The notes beneath the pieces are model-generated. The model saw nothing but the letters and a program-made list of their open reading frames with translations. It was not told the origin of the DNA and made no database searches. The position numbers and the translations under genes are program-made. Source: Acetobacterium woodii DSM 1030 (lineage in GTDB: Bacteria > Bacillota > Clostridia > Eubacteriales > Eubacteriaceae). Taken from it: a stretch of 64,000 nucleotides of DNA. Shown in pieces: positions 4,400 through 21,453 of this stretch. Position 1 is the stretch's first letter. Every line of letters starts with the position of its first letter. The DNA lies in contig NC_016894.1 of assembly GCF_000247605.1 (NCBI RefSeq), positions 2,531,732 to 2,595,731 of the forward strand. The letters are read 5' to 3'.

Positions 4400-6439
4400 C
4401 TAATTAAATGATATTTCTTCTATTTCCTGATAAAATGATTTCAAAACCTTGTTTCTAAAGGTCATCATCTCGCTATTTTTTGATTCAAAAATCGTTTCGG
4501 CAATTAATTTGGTCCGATTGATCATATCCAATTCTTCACTGGGATTAAGTAAACCAAGTTTCGGTAAACCATGTTGTTTATAACCAAAATAGTCCCCCGG
4601 ACCTCGGAGTTTAAAATCTTCATCGGCAATTTTTCGGCCATTGGTATTGTTCACAATCACCTTCATCCGTGCTAAGGTATCGGCACTTTTAGAGTTCGTT
4701 ACCAGAAAACAAAAGGATTGATGATTTCCCCGACCGACCCGTCCGCGTAGTTGATGCAATTGCGATAATCCAAACCGCTCCGCACTAAGAATAACCATGG
4801 TACTGACATTTGGGACATCGATACCAACTTCAATAATGCTCGTTGCCACGAGACAGTCAATTTCTCCGGCATTAAAGGATCGGATAATCGCTTCCTTCGC
4901 CTCGTTTTTTAACCGGCCATGCAGGCAGGCAAGCGTATATTTCGGATTAATCTTTTTATTGAATTCCACATAGACGGTTTCCGTATCCCGAACCTCTTCG
5001 AGCTCTTCGGAGGCTTCAATAAAGGGACAAATGACAAAAGTCTGACGTCCTTTTGCCATTTCATCCTGCATAAAATTGAGAATTTTATGCAGGGTTGCCT
5101 CGTCATAACAATACGTTTTAATTGGTTTCCGTCCCTTGGGTAATTCATCGATATATGAAACTGCTAAATCACCATATAATATTAGCGCCAACGTCCTTGG
5201 TATCGGTGTGGCACTCATCACCATCGTATGTGGCAGATCGCCTTTTTGCGATAGCCGACTGCGTTGTTTGACCCCAAATCGATGCTGTTCATCAGTAATC
5301 ACCAAACCCAAATTATAATAATCAACTGACTTCTGGATTAATGCATGCGTCCCAATAATAACGGACACCTCACCATTTGAAACCTGTTCGAGAATTCTTG
5401 CTTTTTCTTTTGCTTTAAGGCTTCCCGTGATTACTTCTACGGTGATCCCCATATTTTTTAAGAGCTCTTTAAAATTTCTGCCATGCTGTTGCGCTAAAAT
5501 TTCAGTTGGTGCCATATACGCCGTTTGGTAGCCATTTTGAGCCATTAAACAAGCGGCTATAATAGCAATAATCGTTTTGCCGGAACCAACATCACCTTGA
5601 ACCAAGCGATTCATAACCTGTCCGCTTTTTAAATCAGCAATCATCTCATCAATGACCCTTTTTTGGCTTTGCGTTAGTTCATAGGGTAACTTGTTAATTA
5701 ACGGTTTAATTCCAGCAAATAGGTCAAGCTTGACCGTCGAGTACCTTTTTTCTCGCGCATTTGAAATAATGCCAATGTTTATTTTCAGTGCTTCATTAAA
5801 TTTCAGCCGTTCAATTCCCCGTTTTACATCGGCATTTTTTTCAGGAAAATGAATAACCTTTAATGCTGCCGTCAGATCTAATAATTTTTCTGATCGGCGA
5901 ATTTCGGCTGGTAGATCATCTTGAATTTCCAAATCGCCACTAAATATCTGGTCTAACAGTTTCGGAATCACACTTTGAGCAAGCCCTTGGATATTGCGAT
6001 AAACTGGGGTCAACTTAAAAAAATTACCGGGATTTTGGGCCGCAACAAATTGGGGATTTATAATTTTCAGATTGCTATTTGATGTTTTTATCCGCCCATA
6101 AAAATAATACTCACCGTTTTCAATAAACGCATTTTTTAAATACGGCTGGTTAAAAAATACCACCGAGATTTTTTTTTCATCCCATAATGCTGACATTGTC
6201 AAAACTGAAAGATTTCCACGAATACGTTGGACCCGGCCAGTATTTAAAACCATCGCTTTTATCGAAATTTCCTGTTCAAAAGGAAAGTCATCATAATTTT
6301 TCAAATTATTCCGATCAATATATTTGCTGGGATAATAGGTTAACAGATTTCCGATTGTTTTAATTCCGGCTTTTGCTAATGCTTCCCGCCGTTTCGGTCC
6401 CACCCCTTTTAACTGTCCCAGTAGATCATCCCATTTCAT
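4400..6439 (-). CDS. recG: ATP-dependent DNA helicase RecG
   Basis: Branch-migrating helicase that regresses stalled forks and processes Holliday junctions. An N-terminal wedge/OB region (about 60-160) precedes the helicase core with GDVGSGKT (near 285), DEQHRFG (near 383), SATPIPRTL and the motif VI sequence QLRGRVGRG (near 565). All ATPase motifs are intact. The reading frame extends to a TTG at 6460, but ATG at 6439 sits 5 bases after AAAGGA and gives the typical N-terminus MKWDDLLGQLKGVGP, so 679 residues are expected. Confidence 0.96.
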   Translation of the reverse strand: MKWDDLLGQLKGVGPKRREALAKAGIKTIGNLLTYYPSKYIDRNNLKNYDDFPFEQEISIKAMVLNTGRVQRIRGNLSVLTMSALWDEKKISVVFFNQPYLKNAFIENGEYYFYGRIKTSNSNLKIINPQFVAAQNPGNFFKLTPVYRNIQGLAQSVIPKLLDQIFSGDLEIQDDLPAEIRRSEKLLDLTAALKVIHFPEKNADVKRGIERLKFNEALKINIGIISNAREKRYSTVKLDLFAGIKPLINKLPYELTQSQKRVIDEMIADLKSGQVMNRLVQGDVGSGKTIIAIIAACLMAQNGYQTAYMAPTEILAQQHGRNFKELLKNMGITVEVITGSLKAKEKARILEQVSNGEVSVIIGTHALIQKSVDYYNLGLVITDEQHRFGVKQRSRLSQKGDLPHTMVMSATPIPRTLALILYGDLAVSYIDELPKGRKPIKTYCYDEATLHKILNFMQDEMAKGRQTFVICPFIEASEELEEVRDTETVYVEFNKKINPKYTLACLHGRLKNEAKEAIIRSFNAGEIDCLVATSIIEVGIDVPNVSTMVILSAERFGLSQLHQLRGRVGRGNHQSFCFLVTNSKSADTLARMKVIVNNTNGRKIADEDFKLRGPGDYFGYKQHGLPKLGLLNPSEELDMINRTKLIAETIFESKNSEMMTFRNKVLKSFYQEIEEISFN

Positions 6440-6470
6440 ATCAATCCTTTTGTCGATCAATTAATTATCA

Positions 6471-16641: not shown

Positions 16642-17583
16642 TTAGTTTAAAATTGTTCCGACTTCCATTTTTTTTCCTCGCAGAAACACTTTTGCGTCCA
16701 TTCTCGTTTTCCCGGGAAATTGGAGTGATCCAATTTTTATTGCCGCATCTTTTGTTTTGACAATTAGGCCTTCGCGGTCATTTGCGATCAAAATCGTTCC
16801 CGGCTTTTCGTTGCGATCGCAATTAATCACCTTAGGTAAAAATATTTTGATTTTATTTCCCTGATAAAACGTATATGCACCAGGGATTGGATCGGTTCCA
16901 TTAATCAAGGATAAAATCTCTTTGCTGTTTCTCGACCAATTAATCGCGCCGGTGTCTTTTAAAATCTTCTCTGCATAAGTTGCCAGACTATCATTTTGAG
17001 GTTTTGGTTTAATTTCACCGGATAAGTGATTTGTTAAGGTGTCAATTAATAAATCGCCCCCCAAAATTGCTAGTTCTTCATAAAGGCTTCCAAAAGTAGT
17101 CGTTTCTGTGATCGAACATTCGGCTTTAGCTAACATCTCCCCAGTATCCATGCCTTCACTCATTTGCATAATCGTGACCCCGGTTTTTGTTTTTCCATCA
17201 ATGATCGCCCGTTGTATCGGTGCCGCTCCCCGATACTCGGGAAGTAATGAGCCATGAATATTGATTGCCCCGTAAGGCGGTATTGTTAAAATTTCCTTAG
17301 AAAGAATTTGGCCGTAAGCAGCGACAATAAAGATGTCGGCCTGATAACTTTTTAATTGCTCGACGATAACCGGATCTTTAATATTTTCTGGTTGTAAAAC
17401 AGGTATCCCCAATTCCAGCGCTTTCTTTTTTAAAGGCAGGATTTCAATTTTTTTGCCTCTCTTATTCGGTCGGTCAGGCTGACAAATAACTGCCACAACA
17501 TCAAATTTTGCAGACACCAATTTTTCCAGTGCCGGAACGCCAAAATCCGTGGTTCCCATAAATATTACTTTTATCTTGTTCAT
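16642..17583 (-). CDS. fmt: Methionyl-tRNA formyltransferase
   Basis: Formylates initiator Met-tRNA using 10-formyl-tetrahydrofolate, a pool that in acetogens is shared with the Wood-Ljungdahl methyl branch. Catalytic residues are visible: N108 and H110 in AINIHGSLLPEYRGAAPIQRAI, and D146 in MSEGMDTGEM. A C-terminal OB-like domain follows. Length 313 is normal. It overlaps def by 4 bases, the conserved def-fmt pair. Confidence 0.96.
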   Translation of the reverse strand: MNKIKVIFMGTTDFGVPALEKLVSAKFDVVAVICQPDRPNKRGKKIEILPLKKKALELGIPVLQPENIKDPVIVEQLKSYQADIFIVAAYGQILSKEILTIPPYGAINIHGSLLPEYRGAAPIQRAIIDGKTKTGVTIMQMSEGMDTGEMLAKAECSITETTTFGSLYEELAILGGDLLIDTLTNHLSGEIKPKPQNDSLATYAEKILKDTGAINWSRNSKEILSLINGTDPIPGAYTFYQGNKIKIFLPKVINCDRNEKPGTILIANDREGLIVKTKDAAIKIGSLQFPGKTRMDAKVFLRGKKMEVGTILN

Positions 17584-18020
17584 TTTTCAACACGATCAAT
17601 AAAGAGAATCCCATCAAGATGATCTGTTTCATGACAAACAGCTCTTGCTAATAAGTCCGAACAAAACAGCTGAAAAACTCTACCATCCAAACCAGTCGCT
17701 TCAACCACCAGCGATTCTGGCCGCTTCACCACTCCTGATTGCTCTGGAAGACTTAAACACGCTTCCTCATCTTCGGCTTCTCCTTCAGTGGAAAGAATGG
17801 TTGGATTGATAAATACCATCGGTCCATCACCGACATCAACCACAAATAAGCGTTTTAAAACCCCTACCTGAGGGGCTGCTAAGCCAACGCCTTCTGCTTG
17901 TTTCATCGTTTCAATCATATCTTCACTCAAGGTTACAACGCGTTCATTTATTTCGTCGATCAACCGGGATTTCTTTCTAAGAATCGGATCATCATCAATT
18001 CTTATTTGTCTAATTGCCAT
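17580..18020 (-). CDS. def: Peptide deformylase
   Basis: Metallo-enzyme that removes the formyl group from nascent proteins. The three motifs are GVGLAAPQVG (44-53), EACLSLPE with metal ligand C88, and HETDHLDG with H130, E131 and H134. Motif 2 is usually EGCLS; here Gly is replaced by Ala, which need not abolish activity. At 146 residues it is at the short end of type 1 enzymes. It ends in a 4-base overlap with fmt. Confidence 0.95.
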   Translation of the reverse strand: MAIRQIRIDDDPILRKKSRLIDEINERVVTLSEDMIETMKQAEGVGLAAPQVGVLKRLFVVDVGDGPMVFINPTILSTEGEAEDEEACLSLPEQSGVVKRPESLVVEATGLDGRVFQLFCSDLLARAVCHETDHLDGILFIDRVEK

Positions 18021-18066: not shown

Positions 18067-20460
18067 TCAATTTATTTCGATTGAGACCTTTGATTTTAAC
18101 TTTTCAATAATTCCCAGTTTTATAATTTTAGGCATCAAGTTTTGAAATACACTTTGTTCCGATAATTTTAAAATGACTTGATAGGTGATGTTTCCACCTG
18201 CTGAAACCCCCATTCGAACGGGTTTAAATATCGCATATGATACCTCTGACGCTTTCAGCTCTTTTTTTAACTCAACGTATAAATGAAAAGCGTCATTTTC
18301 AGCCGCTTTTTCGTTTTTCTGGAAAATTCCAAAACTGATCATAGTAATAACGGGCGGATAATTCATTAACTTCCGATATTGAATTTCGTCGCGATAAAAC
18401 TCCTGGAAGCTATCATTTATAATTGAATAAATTGTCTCATTCTCCGGTTCATGGGTTTGAATCAGCCCAATTGTCTGGTCGTCCATCGCTTTTTCAAAAA
18501 AACGCCGATATGTTTGATAAACGGTTTCCGATGCGTAATAATTTCCCTGATTGAGATCGCGATCAATCAGCACCGCCGCCGCTACACCAACATTCGTTAA
18601 ATTAAAATGTTTAATAATAACCTGTGTTCCAATTAAAATATCAATTTCTGACCGCGTCAAGTCCTTATTAATCTTATTTATTTCGGTTCGATTCATATTT
18701 CCCTGAACGGTGATTATCCGTTTGTCAGGAAAAATTTTCTTTAAATACTCCAGTAATTGGTCAATCCCAAAACCCATCAGTCTGATTTTATCACTTTTAC
18801 AAACCGGACACTGCTGCGGAACCGGGGTTTTATAACCACAATAACGGCAATGAAGCGACCGGTCATGATTAAAATATTTCATCGCAATTCCACAATTCGG
18901 ACACTTTTCAAGATGTCCACAATTTCGACAAAAGACACTGTTTGCATAACCGGTATTATTAACAAACAACACACTTAAGCGCTTTTGGTCAAATGCTGTA
19001 CGCATTTCTGTTAACAATCGCTGGCTCAACAATCCCATGTTGCCGCGATGCATTTCCTTTTGCATATCAACTATTTGGATTTTTTTTTGTAAGCCTTTAT
19101 TTTCACCAATTTGCAGTTTGTTTAATTCTTTTTTTTCGATTTGATACCAAGTTGTTATCCGCGGTGAATCATCGGCAATGATTAAAGCCGCTCCCATAAT
19201 TTTACTCGCTTTTTTGGCAACATCAGAGATATGGAATTTCGGTGTTGAAATGCTCACGTGGGATGTATCATGTTCATCATCAATAATGATTAAGCCGAGC
19301 TTTTTAAATGGTAAAAAGATCGCCGATCTTACCCCAATCACCACCTGTAATTCACCATCCTGAACCTTATAAAAAAGGTCAGCTTTTTGTTTTGCGGTTA
19401 AACGACTATGAAAAATTCCCACCCGATCACCAAAATACTTATAAAACACTTCCATTCTCTGAAAGGTCATATTGATCTCTGGAAAAATAACAACCGTCGA
19501 GTTACCCACTTTTAATTGCTCCGCAATCGCTTTAAAAAATATTTTATATTTACTAACCCCATCAAAAACATGAAAAAACACTGCAATTTTATTTTGGATC
19601 AATTTTGTATAGTCATGATAGTATTTTTCTTCTTTAGCGTTTAAAACAACAGCTTGTGGGAGTATTTCTTTTATTGGTAATTCAGCTTTTTGATCAATTT
19701 TTAAGGCGCTGTTTTTTTGTATATAGTTTTTTTCAATCAGGGGCTTTAAACTTTTTTCAAATTGTTTCGAAATCATTTTAAGATCCGCAGTTGTCATATC
19801 TTTATGTAACAGACAGTCCATCATCATACGCTGATTTTTCCCAATTGATTTATCTTTTTTTATTAATGCTTTTCGACCCTCTTCAGTTAACGAATATATT
19901 AAATCAGGGGTAACCGCTTTACTGCTTCTACCAACTGTTGGTACCCACTTTTTTTCTAAGCTAATAACTTTTTTATTAACAAGTTCTGCTAAAATGGTTT
20001 GATCTTCAGGTTTGATTTTTTTTAACAACACCACTTCATTTTCTGTGGTAAAATAATGCTCAATAAACCAGGTTTCCCTTAGATCCAAAGCAAAGTTGCC
20101 GCCCTTTTTAGTATAACAAATTTCCAATTTTATCTTTACTGAGCTGGTAAAATAAGATAAAGCTTCATAAAATAAAGAACAATAGGCGGTCTTCATCCAA
20201 AGACACAATTCTATTTGTTCTTTATTTAATACTGGCGCTATATCAATATTCTCGATAATTTTTTTTATTTTCCCAGAAAATGTGGTTGTTTCTTTAATTA
20301 ACACCACAAAACCCTCAACCTGGCGATTTCCGATACCAAATGTTACCACCGTCCGCATTCCAACTTTTATTACCGCTTCCAATTCTTTGGGAATTTCATA
20401 ATCGTAGCTATGGTCAATACGCTTGTTTTTCTGATTTAAAAAAACTTCGGCAATTTTCAC
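18067..20460 (-). CDS. priA: Primosomal protein N' (PriA) with degenerate helicase motifs
   Basis: A 797-residue protein with PriA layout: DNA-binding N-terminus, helicase-like core, the zinc region CRNCGHLEKCPNCG...CRYCGY...CPVC (about 495-545) and a C-terminal domain. The core is altered. The Walker A loop, normally GVTGSGKT, reads FDGVSKYK (near residue 300), lacking the Gly-Lys-Thr triad. Walker B reads IIIDDEHD (near 393). The motif VI sequence, normally AGRAGR, reads FEKAMDDQ (near 655). The reading frame is otherwise uninterrupted and the cysteines are intact, so replication-restart scaffolding may survive while ATP-driven unwinding probably does not. Actinobacterial PriA has a comparable loss. 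Confidence 0.9.
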   Translation of the reverse strand: MKIAEVFLNQKNKRIDHSYDYEIPKELEAVIKVGMRTVVTFGIGNRQVEGFVVLIKETTTFSGKIKKIIENIDIAPVLNKEQIELCLWMKTAYCSLFYEALSYFTSSVKIKLEICYTKKGGNFALDLRETWFIEHYFTTENEVVLLKKIKPEDQTILAELVNKKVISLEKKWVPTVGRSSKAVTPDLIYSLTEEGRKALIKKDKSIGKNQRMMMDCLLHKDMTTADLKMISKQFEKSLKPLIEKNYIQKNSALKIDQKAELPIKEILPQAVVLNAKEEKYYHDYTKLIQNKIAVFFHVFDGVSKYKIFFKAIAEQLKVGNSTVVIFPEINMTFQRMEVFYKYFGDRVGIFHSRLTAKQKADLFYKVQDGELQVVIGVRSAIFLPFKKLGLIIIDDEHDTSHVSISTPKFHISDVAKKASKIMGAALIIADDSPRITTWYQIEKKELNKLQIGENKGLQKKIQIVDMQKEMHRGNMGLLSQRLLTEMRTAFDQKRLSVLFVNNTGYANSVFCRNCGHLEKCPNCGIAMKYFNHDRSLHCRYCGYKTPVPQQCPVCKSDKIRLMGFGIDQLLEYLKKIFPDKRIITVQGNMNRTEINKINKDLTRSEIDILIGTQVIIKHFNLTNVGVAAAVLIDRDLNQGNYYASETVYQTYRRFFEKAMDDQTIGLIQTHEPENETIYSIINDSFQEFYRDEIQYRKLMNYPPVITMISFGIFQKNEKAAENDAFHLYVELKKELKASEVSYAIFKPVRMGVSAGGNITYQVILKLSEQSVFQNLMPKIIKLGIIEKLKSKVSIEIN

Positions 20461-20473
20461 AATCGTACAGATC

Positions 20474-20770
20474 CTAATCCTTTATTTGTGATGATCCGTC
20501 ATGTTCGTCAACATCAAAAAGCATTACGTCTGATTCTTCACTCACTTCAATTAACTCCGGATCATCTTCAACCTGATGTGTTTTATGGACGCAATGAATC
20601 ATCGCTTCAGAAATCTCATTGGTTGCTATGGTCACGGGATTATCAATTTTTATTTTTACTAGTGGTTCATCCCCTTCCACTATTTCTCTTGCCCGTTTTG
20701 CTGTTGCCAATACCAGTGAATATTTATTCCCTGCTTTACTAATTAAATCGTTTAATGCTGGATATCGCAT
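20474..20770 (-). CDS. rpoZ: DNA-directed RNA polymerase omega subunit
   Basis: 98 residues. The N-terminal MRYPALNDLISKAGNKYSL and VLATAKRAREIVEG are the conserved omega helices that latch the beta-prime C-terminus; the tail is acidic and variable. It follows gmk by 2 bases and precedes priA by 13, as in other Firmicutes, except that coaBC, often found between rpoZ and priA, is absent. Confidence 0.94.
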   Translation of the reverse strand: MRYPALNDLISKAGNKYSLVLATAKRAREIVEGDEPLVKIKIDNPVTIATNEISEAMIHCVHKTHQVEDDPELIEVSEESDVMLFDVDEHDGSSQIKD

Positions 20771-20772
20771 TT

Positions 20773-21453
20773 TTACCTCCCAAGTATATCTTCGATTTTA
20801 TTTTTCAATCTTTCAGTTCGACATTTTTCAGCGGTGATGATACTTTGCACGCGTTGCGCGGCATCTTCAAGTTCGTCATTAATGACAATATAACTGTAAT
20901 CATCCGCATTCTTCATTTCCTCATAGGCGCAATTCAAGCGCATTTCCATTTGTTCTTTACTTTCAGTACCCCGTTCTTCGATTCGTCGTTTGAGCTCCTG
21001 CATCGAAGGTGGCACGATAAAAATATAAATACCCTCTTTATAGTTCGTCCGAACTTTTGCAGCTCCTTGAATATCTATTTCTAATATCACATCAAAACCT
21101 GATTCCAATAAATTTTCCACGTAATCTTTAGGTGTTCCATAATAATTTTCGTAAACGGTAGCATATTCCAGGTATTGTCCTTGCTCAATTCGCTTTTCAA
21201 AACATTCTTTAGAAATATAAAAATACTCTCGCCCGTGTTTCTCATTGTTTCTTGGCTGTCGTGTTGTTTCTGAAATTGACAACCGAAGATCCGGATTTTT
21301 ACGACAAATGATTTTACACACACTACCCTTGCCCGCACAAGACGGTCCCGATATAACAATAAGAATACCTTTTTCGCGCTCAAAAAAGAGCTCTGACGAC
21401 TCTTTTAATTCGTGGTTTACTACTGGACAATCGCTCATAGACTTATTTAACAC
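20773..21453 (-). CDS. gmk: Guanylate kinase
   Basis: Phosphorylates GMP to GDP. The P-loop is GPSCAGKGS (36-44), with Cys where Gly is usual in GPSGAGKGT. The GMP-binding part TTRQPRNNEKHGREYFYIS and the lid IEERGTESKEQMEMRL are present. The N-terminus is about 28 residues longer than usual; the start is either GTG at 21453 or ATG at 21438, since no other start codon occurs before the P-loop. It starts 2 bases after yicC; the small remA gene usually found between them is missing. Confidence 0.93.
   Translation of the reverse strand: MLNKSMSDCPVVNHELKESSELFFEREKGILIVISGPSCAGKGSVCKIICRKNPDLRLSISETTRQPRNNEKHGREYFYISKECFEKRIEQGQYLEYATVYENYYGTPKDYVENLLESGFDVILEIDIQGAAKVRTNYKEGIYIFIVPPSMQELKRRIEERGTESKEQMEMRLNCAYEEMKNADDYSYIVINDELEDAAQRVQSIITAEKCRTERLKNKIEDILGR

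Follow-up and report, generated by a model that had tools for sequence, protein, structure and literature searches.

How can a bacterium restart stalled replication with a PriA protein whose motor appears to be gone? The question is raised by the priA gene in a 64,000-nucleotide stretch of the Acetobacterium woodii DSM 1030 genome, hereafter the window (NCBI RefSeq assembly GCF_000247605.1, contig NC_016894.1, positions 2,531,732 to 2,595,731 of the forward strand). In this protein the motor motifs are lost and the DNA-gripping parts are kept, a combination that suggests a passive platform in the restart of stalled replication. We assign a probability of roughly 0.78 to the reading that PriA of the GTDB family holding Acetobacterium and Eubacterium callanderi (Eubacteriaceae) would act as an ATP-independent pseudohelicase, a static platform that loads the replicative helicase via DnaD-type proteins. 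The motor is best read as having been lost in the ancestor of this family. As far as the literature shows, such a putative family-wide loss is new in Bacillota.

The window protein is a true PriA orthologue. Its open reading frame begins with GTG and runs without an internal stop, and the product scores 380.1 bits against the NCBIfam model TIGR00595 (priA), above the cut-off of 230.35. The best of the PRK05580 models reaches 455.5, below its own cut-off of 813; the cut-offs of these models are far higher than that of TIGR00595. Pfam matches cover the 3'-DNA-binding domain (3'BD), the PriA zinc ribbon and both helicase lobes. The full PriA domain set is present, namely 3'BD, eight-cysteine zinc region, two RecA-like lobes and C-terminal domain (CTD), and all zinc cysteines are in place (residues 511, 514, 520, 523, 538, 541, 551 and 554). 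No second full-length PriA was found in the A. woodii genome, which is complete in one contig of 4,044,777 bases. The sole other match (E 7e-4) spans 62 helicase-core residues inside the recG gene of the window.

The motor motifs of this protein are replaced at most sites. Where PriA has GVTGSGKT at motif I (Walker A), the window protein reads VFDGVSKY (FDGVSKYK one residue on). Motif III reads ADDSP against canonical GSATP. At motif V, GTQVIIKHFN stands in place of GTQM..KGxDF, so that GT(Q) is kept and KGxDF is lost, and motif VI reads YRRFFEKAMDD instead of Q..GRAGR. Walker B (motif II, IIIDDEHD) is near canonical in Acetobacterium and degenerate elsewhere in the family. Sequencing error, frameshift and chance were considered for the Walker A change and ruled out, because relatives 51-69% identical read alike through the region.

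The same condition extends across the family. PriA occurs in all 40 of its genomes, which represent nine genera; 41 PriA rows were taken, 38 of them full length, with G008 and G009 contributing fragments only. Motifs were scored with the patterns G.TGSGKT (I), DE[EQC]H (II), [ST]ATP (III), KG.DF (V) and Q..GR.GR (VI). Patterns I, II, III and VI are matched by none of the 38 full-length members, with motifs I, III and VI absent from every one, and the single match to pattern V, in the window protein, lies outside motif V. Motif VI is likewise matched by none of the 41 rows, 40 of which reach the site, two fragments among them. The outgroup comprised 27 genomes from four other families of the order (f2 to f5), with 23 full-length PriAs, two fragments and two genomes without PriA, and every motif is intact in all 23 evaluable full-length proteins. 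The eight-cysteine pattern is kept on both sides (40/40 family rows reaching it, 23/23 canonical) and in all eight motorless PriAs found elsewhere in the phylum. Cultured and named carriers of a motorless PriA include A. wieringae, A. paludosum, A. tundrae, A. fimetarium, A. bakii, A. dehalogenans, E. callanderi and E. barkeri. Five of six control loci outside the family (L112-L115 and L118) have canonical or near-canonical motifs. L119, from a metagenome-assembled genome of Candidatus Paceibacterota, encodes a distant PriA-like protein in whose aligned sequence motifs I, II, III and VI are likewise missing. As a separate observation, no PriA was found in G286 (f67), G047 and G054 (both f3), with stated completeness of 96%, 92% and 86%; assembly gaps may explain these cases.

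A preliminary description of the locus, made from the letters of the window alone, had read Walker A, motifs II and VI, the GTQ element and the eight cysteines as they stand here; motifs III and V prove to be altered too. It had also proposed that a Bacillota lineage independently lost PriA unwinding and kept the DNA-binding scaffold, which agrees with the motif counts, the tree, the fixed residues and the 3'BD constraint reported here. The loss it described is real but wider, taking in the whole family, with similar losses in four other families. A second, intact priA, which that description had set as grounds for giving up the idea, was looked for and found neither in the complete genome nor in the other 39 family genomes, some of which are incomplete. 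The additional PriA rows from family genomes stem from the 3'BD portion of one and the same gene, from a further fragment in G009, or from short stretches of helicase core matched in other proteins.

The putatively dead motor site has acquired conserved residues of its own at motifs III and VI. Residue 430 is Asp in 35 and Glu in three of the 38 family members, against Ser in 22 and Thr in one of the 23 canonical proteins. Beside the lost motif VI arginines, at positions where canonical PriA carries different residues, stand Tyr651 (36/38), Phe654 (34/38) and Phe655 (35/38). The pattern Y.[RLKAS]FF is shared by 34 of 40 family rows and is absent from all eight other motorless rows. Two of 23 canonical rows match it too; these two matches must sit elsewhere in the protein, since motif VI of both is canonical.

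Low ratios of nonsynonymous to synonymous substitution rates (dN/dS), a predicted PriA fold and the fixation of new residues in the dead site together indicate that the motorless PriA is not decaying. For the whole gene, dN/dS is 0.096-0.165 in 12 family pairs versus 0.050-0.134 in five canonical pairs, with dS saturated in some pairs and sequences partly shared among them. The AlphaFold2 model of the window protein has a mean predicted local distance difference test score (pLDDT) of 81 and a predicted template modelling score (pTM) of 0.78. It superposes on the solved E. coli PriA (6dcr) with Z 29.0 over 615 residues (root-mean-square deviation 3.8, model range 8-797), and the best fold match outside PriA is Mfd (Z 17.8). 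The locus thus combines degenerate catalytic motifs with purifying selection in a PriA orthologue, which is one mark of a PriA pseudohelicase of the D. radiodurans type; purifying selection as part of that mark is our own addition. Gene decay, that is, a priA copy degenerating in a lineage with no further need of PriA, would account for accelerated evolution and for the very divergent members of genera g2 and g9 (24-28% identity). We regard it as hardly credible, given that no PriA match in the 40 family genomes (two with fragments only) contains an internal stop, that dN/dS lies in the range above, and that the loss is as old as the family and the cluster position is conserved.

Constraint has shifted within the protein. 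Mean pairwise identity of the 3'BD is 0.52 among the 38 family members and 0.35 among the 23 canonical ones, whereas lobe 1 falls from 0.53 in canonical proteins to 0.35 in the family and lobe 2 from 0.57 to 0.41. In the family, the 3'BD is the most conserved domain, and lobe 1 is the least conserved apart from the linker and winged-helix region. When pairs are matched by CTD identity, the family shows higher conservation of the 3'BD and lower conservation of both lobes in 6/6 bins; these hold 669/703 family and 241/253 canonical pairs (the remainder lie below 0.20 CTD identity), the two highest contain only five and two canonical pairs, and the pairs share sequences and are non-independent. 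The ratio of 3'BD to lobe identity is 1.47 in the home family, 1.29 in f74 (6 pairs) and 1.24 in f110, compared with 0.55-0.88 in canonical groups; the f110 figure and that of f85 are single values from one pair each. The 3'BD-over-lobes order is repeated in two independent motorless families, f74 and f110.

Relative to its neighbours yicC, def and fmt, PriA diverges 2.10-fold in the family (36 pairs), against 1.11-fold in three canonical pairs, one of four canonical loci having been dropped where yicC was not found. This roughly twofold faster divergence, like the new conserved residues at motifs III and VI, would also fit a protein that has left replication restart for another function, perhaps that of a DNA-binding regulator or of a structural factor. 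Such a reuse has little chance of being correct: the DNA-binding domain is under stronger constraint, the zinc cysteines are kept in 40/40 rows, the DnaD-type gene persists in every family genome tested (15/15), and no other PriA was found that could assume restart.

With the motif columns left out, a tree of 46 PriAs places the family in one clade with support of 100/100; it took 14 of the 38 full-length family rows and 15 of the 23 order rows. Gene context supports the orthology of PriA. The order yicC-gmk-rpoZ-priA-def-fmt is found in 12/12 family loci, followed by rsmB in 11, the twelfth contig ending earlier. The same order occurs in f2, f4 and f5 (one locus each), with about 1.4 kb between rpoZ and priA in f4, and the one f3 locus shares it from rpoZ on. 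The loss of the motor is taken to be vertical, because priA occupies the same cluster in the family and in canonical families. The rpoZ-like gene of the window is presumed from its sequence; NCBIfam gives it no match at E 1e-10. Features of the locus are collected in Table 1.

Table 1. Features of the A. woodii priA locus and other genes of the window; positions are counted from the first letter of the window.
Feature	Residues	Position	Strand	Basis or remark
priA, putative PriA pseudohelicase, motor motifs lost	797 amino acids	18067..20460	-	only full-length PriA in genome
3'-DNA-binding domain	1-106	20143..20460	-	Pfam PF17764, E 1e-18
linker and winged-helix region, most variable part	107-268	19657..20142	-	alignment and model; boundaries drawn by us
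former motif I / Walker A, VFDGVSKY	298-305	19546..19569	-	0/38 family match vs 23/23 outgroup
motif II / Walker B, DDEHD	394-398	19267..19281	-	alignment
former motif III, DDSP	430-433	19162..19173	-	D430 in place of Ser of SAT
cysteine-rich region, eight Cys kept	511-554	18799..18930	-	Cys pattern
former motif V, GTQVIIKHFNL	611-621	18598..18630	-	alignment
former motif VI	648-660	18481..18519	-	Q..GR.GR in 23/23 canonical vs 0/41 family rows
C-terminal domain	691-797	18070..18390	-	model superposes on solved PriA up to residue 797
def, peptide deformylase, downstream neighbour		17580..18020	-	NCBIfam; adjoins priA in 16/16 loci compared
fmt, methionyl-tRNA formyltransferase, downstream neighbour		16642..17583	-	NCBIfam and locus comparison
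rpoZ-like gene (presumed RNA polymerase omega), upstream neighbour, 13 bases from priA		20474..20770	-	locus comparison
gmk, guanylate kinase, upstream neighbour		20773..21453	-	NCBIfam and locus comparison
recG, RecG helicase		4400..6460	-	NCBIfam

Beyond the family, the PriA motor appears to have been lost repeatedly in Bacillota. A survey took 398 genomes, sampled evenly across the phylum, and scored them against a canonical motif I-III profile. Besides A. woodii, 18 of them had their motifs read (the 17 weakest scorers and the canonical relative G317), the other 379 being judged by score alone. PriA is present in 17 of the 18, G286 being the exception. In eight of these 17 proteins (L077-L084), motifs I and VI are missing and motifs II, III and V are degraded to differing extents; the eight come from f74 (G142, G275, G396, G446), f110 (G281, G419), f114 (G302) and f146 (G462). 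The other nine, including G317 of f74, have motif I, with the remaining motifs canonical or near-canonical. L077, from G142, looks intermediate, with SPTP at motif III and DQEH at motif II. On the unrooted tree, at least four changes between motor and motorless states are needed. A single origin of all motorless PriAs was rejected, as its log-likelihood is 155 lower (p-AU, the approximately unbiased test value, 0.00037). Five long end branches (L080, L039, L070, L037 and L075) and uneven letter composition in 27/46 rows mean that the count of four changes could shift. The unrooted tree gives no direction, and the changes are read as losses because regain of a whole motif set is implausible.

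Which partners would a motorless PriA work with? In Bacillota, the restart primosome consists of PriA, DnaD, DnaB and DnaI, and a gene of the DnaD/DnaB type (PF07261) accompanies PriA in the family: it was found in all 15 family genomes tested (of 40) and in 17/17 canonical members of the order, with B. subtilis as a positive control of the search. None of these 15 family genomes had lost the DnaD-type gene along with the motor. In the two f110 genomes with motorless PriA (G281 and G419), PF07261 was not found, and another loader may be in use.

Candidates for a substitute motor were compared in the same genomes. RecQ fails as a general substitute, being over the cut-off in 8/15 family versus 6/17 canonical order genomes. 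RecD2 was likewise set aside: it is present in 15/15 and 17/17, yet absent from all five genomes of f74, including the canonical one, from both of f110 and from the f146 genome, and follows no pattern. RecG is encoded within the window itself. RadA/Sms is found in 15/15 family genomes, 11/17 canonical genomes of the order, 7/8 motorless genomes outside the family and the single canonical genome of f74, with 10/14 control genomes and 34/41 of the genomes tested positive. It is present in f2 and f4 and absent from both f5 genomes, 4/6 f3 genomes tested and the motorless f114 genome; those without a match at E 1e-50 are G049, G055, G056 and G058 (f3), G063 and G066 (f5) and G302 (f114). In G446, a single-contig genome, radA lies in two frames (C1:2139962-2141307), a frameshift or assembly error. 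The RadA difference follows families rather than motor loss, so phylogeny confounds the link. The motor could have been replaced in trans by an intact helicase that the same branch acquired or retained, with PriA as its loading partner. RadA/Sms, through its suggestive occurrence, is the candidate for that role, but the confounding just described and the patternless distribution of RecQ and RecD2 make such a replacement unlikely.

Two points of the preliminary description read differently here. Reliance on another helicase stays a conjecture, with RecQ in 8/15 family genomes and RadA also in 12/18 genomes that have canonical PriA. Its precedent was the actinobacterial PriA, which it described as lacking detectable helicase motifs. 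The nearest tested precedent is instead that of Deinococcus (PMC4504706). The putative actinobacterial orthologue is described as smaller and very divergent in PMC1193525; it belongs to a separate phylum and is set beside the family PriA by description only.

The PriA pseudohelicase as a kind is already known from Deinococcus. In PMC4504706, whose motif logos cover 100 genera and 18 phyla, members of Deinococcus-Thermus are named as notable exceptions to PriA motif conservation, and D. radiodurans PriA, without ATPase or unwinding, still binds forks and DnaB. The same text reports that E. coli PriA deprived of its ATPase can still build primosomes on model substrates. Together, these two results make a platform role plausible. 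With D. radiodurans PriA, the family protein shares orthology, degenerate helicase motifs, retained DNA-binding parts and a proposed role as restart platform, here judged by sequence. It differs in belonging to another phylum, and its origin is taken as separate without a joint tree. In D. radiodurans an Arg occupies the place of the Walker A Lys and the sequence fits motifs I and II poorly, while in the family motifs I, III, V and VI are replaced and new residues fixed; the former is an assayed protein, and the latter is known from its sequence, with a restart partner that is likely of the DnaD type. ATPase-dead E. coli alleles such as K230R (PMC4504706) share primosome assembly without ATPase but are laboratory point mutants lacking the further changes of the natural family PriA. 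With canonical PriA of the B. subtilis type, the family protein shares orthology, the gene cluster of sister families, domain order, zinc cysteines and a DnaD-type gene, and it differs in lacking the motor motifs and in having the 3'BD as its most conserved domain. Among the literature matches listed, most subscription papers lying outside their scope, no report of a motorless PriA in Eubacteriaceae was found. As far as this literature shows, the novelty lies in a motor loss that spans a whole family of Bacillota and recurs in the phylum, in the fixed new residues that replace motifs III and VI, and in the inverted constraint.

From these comparisons we infer a PriA without ATPase or unwinding activity, a role in helicase loading and, where needed, another unwinder. 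The protein would recognise a branched fork or D-loop via its 3'BD, winged helix and zinc region, a role to which the conservation of the 3'BD speaks indirectly. On this platform, DnaD-type proteins and a loader would set the replicative helicase on the template of the lagging strand. Where the nascent lagging strand must be cleared, RadA/Sms, PcrA, RecG or a nuclease could remove it; alternatively, clearing may be avoided if PriA acts only on forks that are already gapped. B. subtilis RadA/Sms can unwind the nascent lagging strand, making a PriA substrate, and a crucial role of the PriA motor in B. subtilis restart is stated to be unclear, with conflicting results (both from PMC10804225). As a speculative extension, the old ATP cleft might have been rebuilt after the loss, with Asp430 and Tyr651/Phe654/Phe655 locking the two lobes in one fixed, fork-competent pose. 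PriA would then be a loading clamp that is permanently "on" and works through its N-terminal DNA-binding domain, in a phylum where the motor would be repeatedly expendable. We hold this idea tentatively and would not be surprised to see it fail.

Several points weigh against a passive platform. Position 304 is Lys in 19/38 and Arg in 11/38 family members, and the acidic residues of Walker B are partly kept, so weak nucleotide binding is possible from the sequence. PriA could then keep its restart role and still bind or slowly hydrolyse ATP through an altered pocket, as a divergent rather than a dead motor. Although the acidic motif II residues and Lys/Arg304 (30/38) persist in most members and the two-lobe fold is kept in the model, we judge this improbable: most of the remaining P-loop positions now hold a variety of residues (Gly298 kept in 4/38; Thr305 replaced by Tyr, Phe, Trp or Leu in 33/38), the GR.GR arginines of motif VI are gone, and a single K-to-R change at the P-loop Lys is reported in PMC4504706 to abolish E. 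coli PriA ATPase. The zinc region has a mean identity of 0.47 in the family versus 0.57 in canonical proteins and is less conserved in each CTD-matched bin; hence not all scaffold parts gained constraint. No tested candidate for a substitute helicase tracks motor loss. Work by Masai in 1999, by its title, reportedly ties PriA ATPase/helicase activity to inducible stable replication. In E. coli, the PriA-PriC-DnaT restart route needs the PriA helicase, according to PMC13220808. The ATP-independent platform nonetheless remains our preferred reading, at the probability given above.

For the biology of the group, these comparisons suggest that the PriA motor was lost naturally several times in the phylum, once early enough to leave a whole family, with cultured members, to a motorless protein. 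The inversion of constraint indicates which domain carries out the essential task. The motorless PriAs of these species could be used to separate fork recognition and helicase loading from unwinding, and the residues fixed at motifs III and VI would offer precise targets for mutation.

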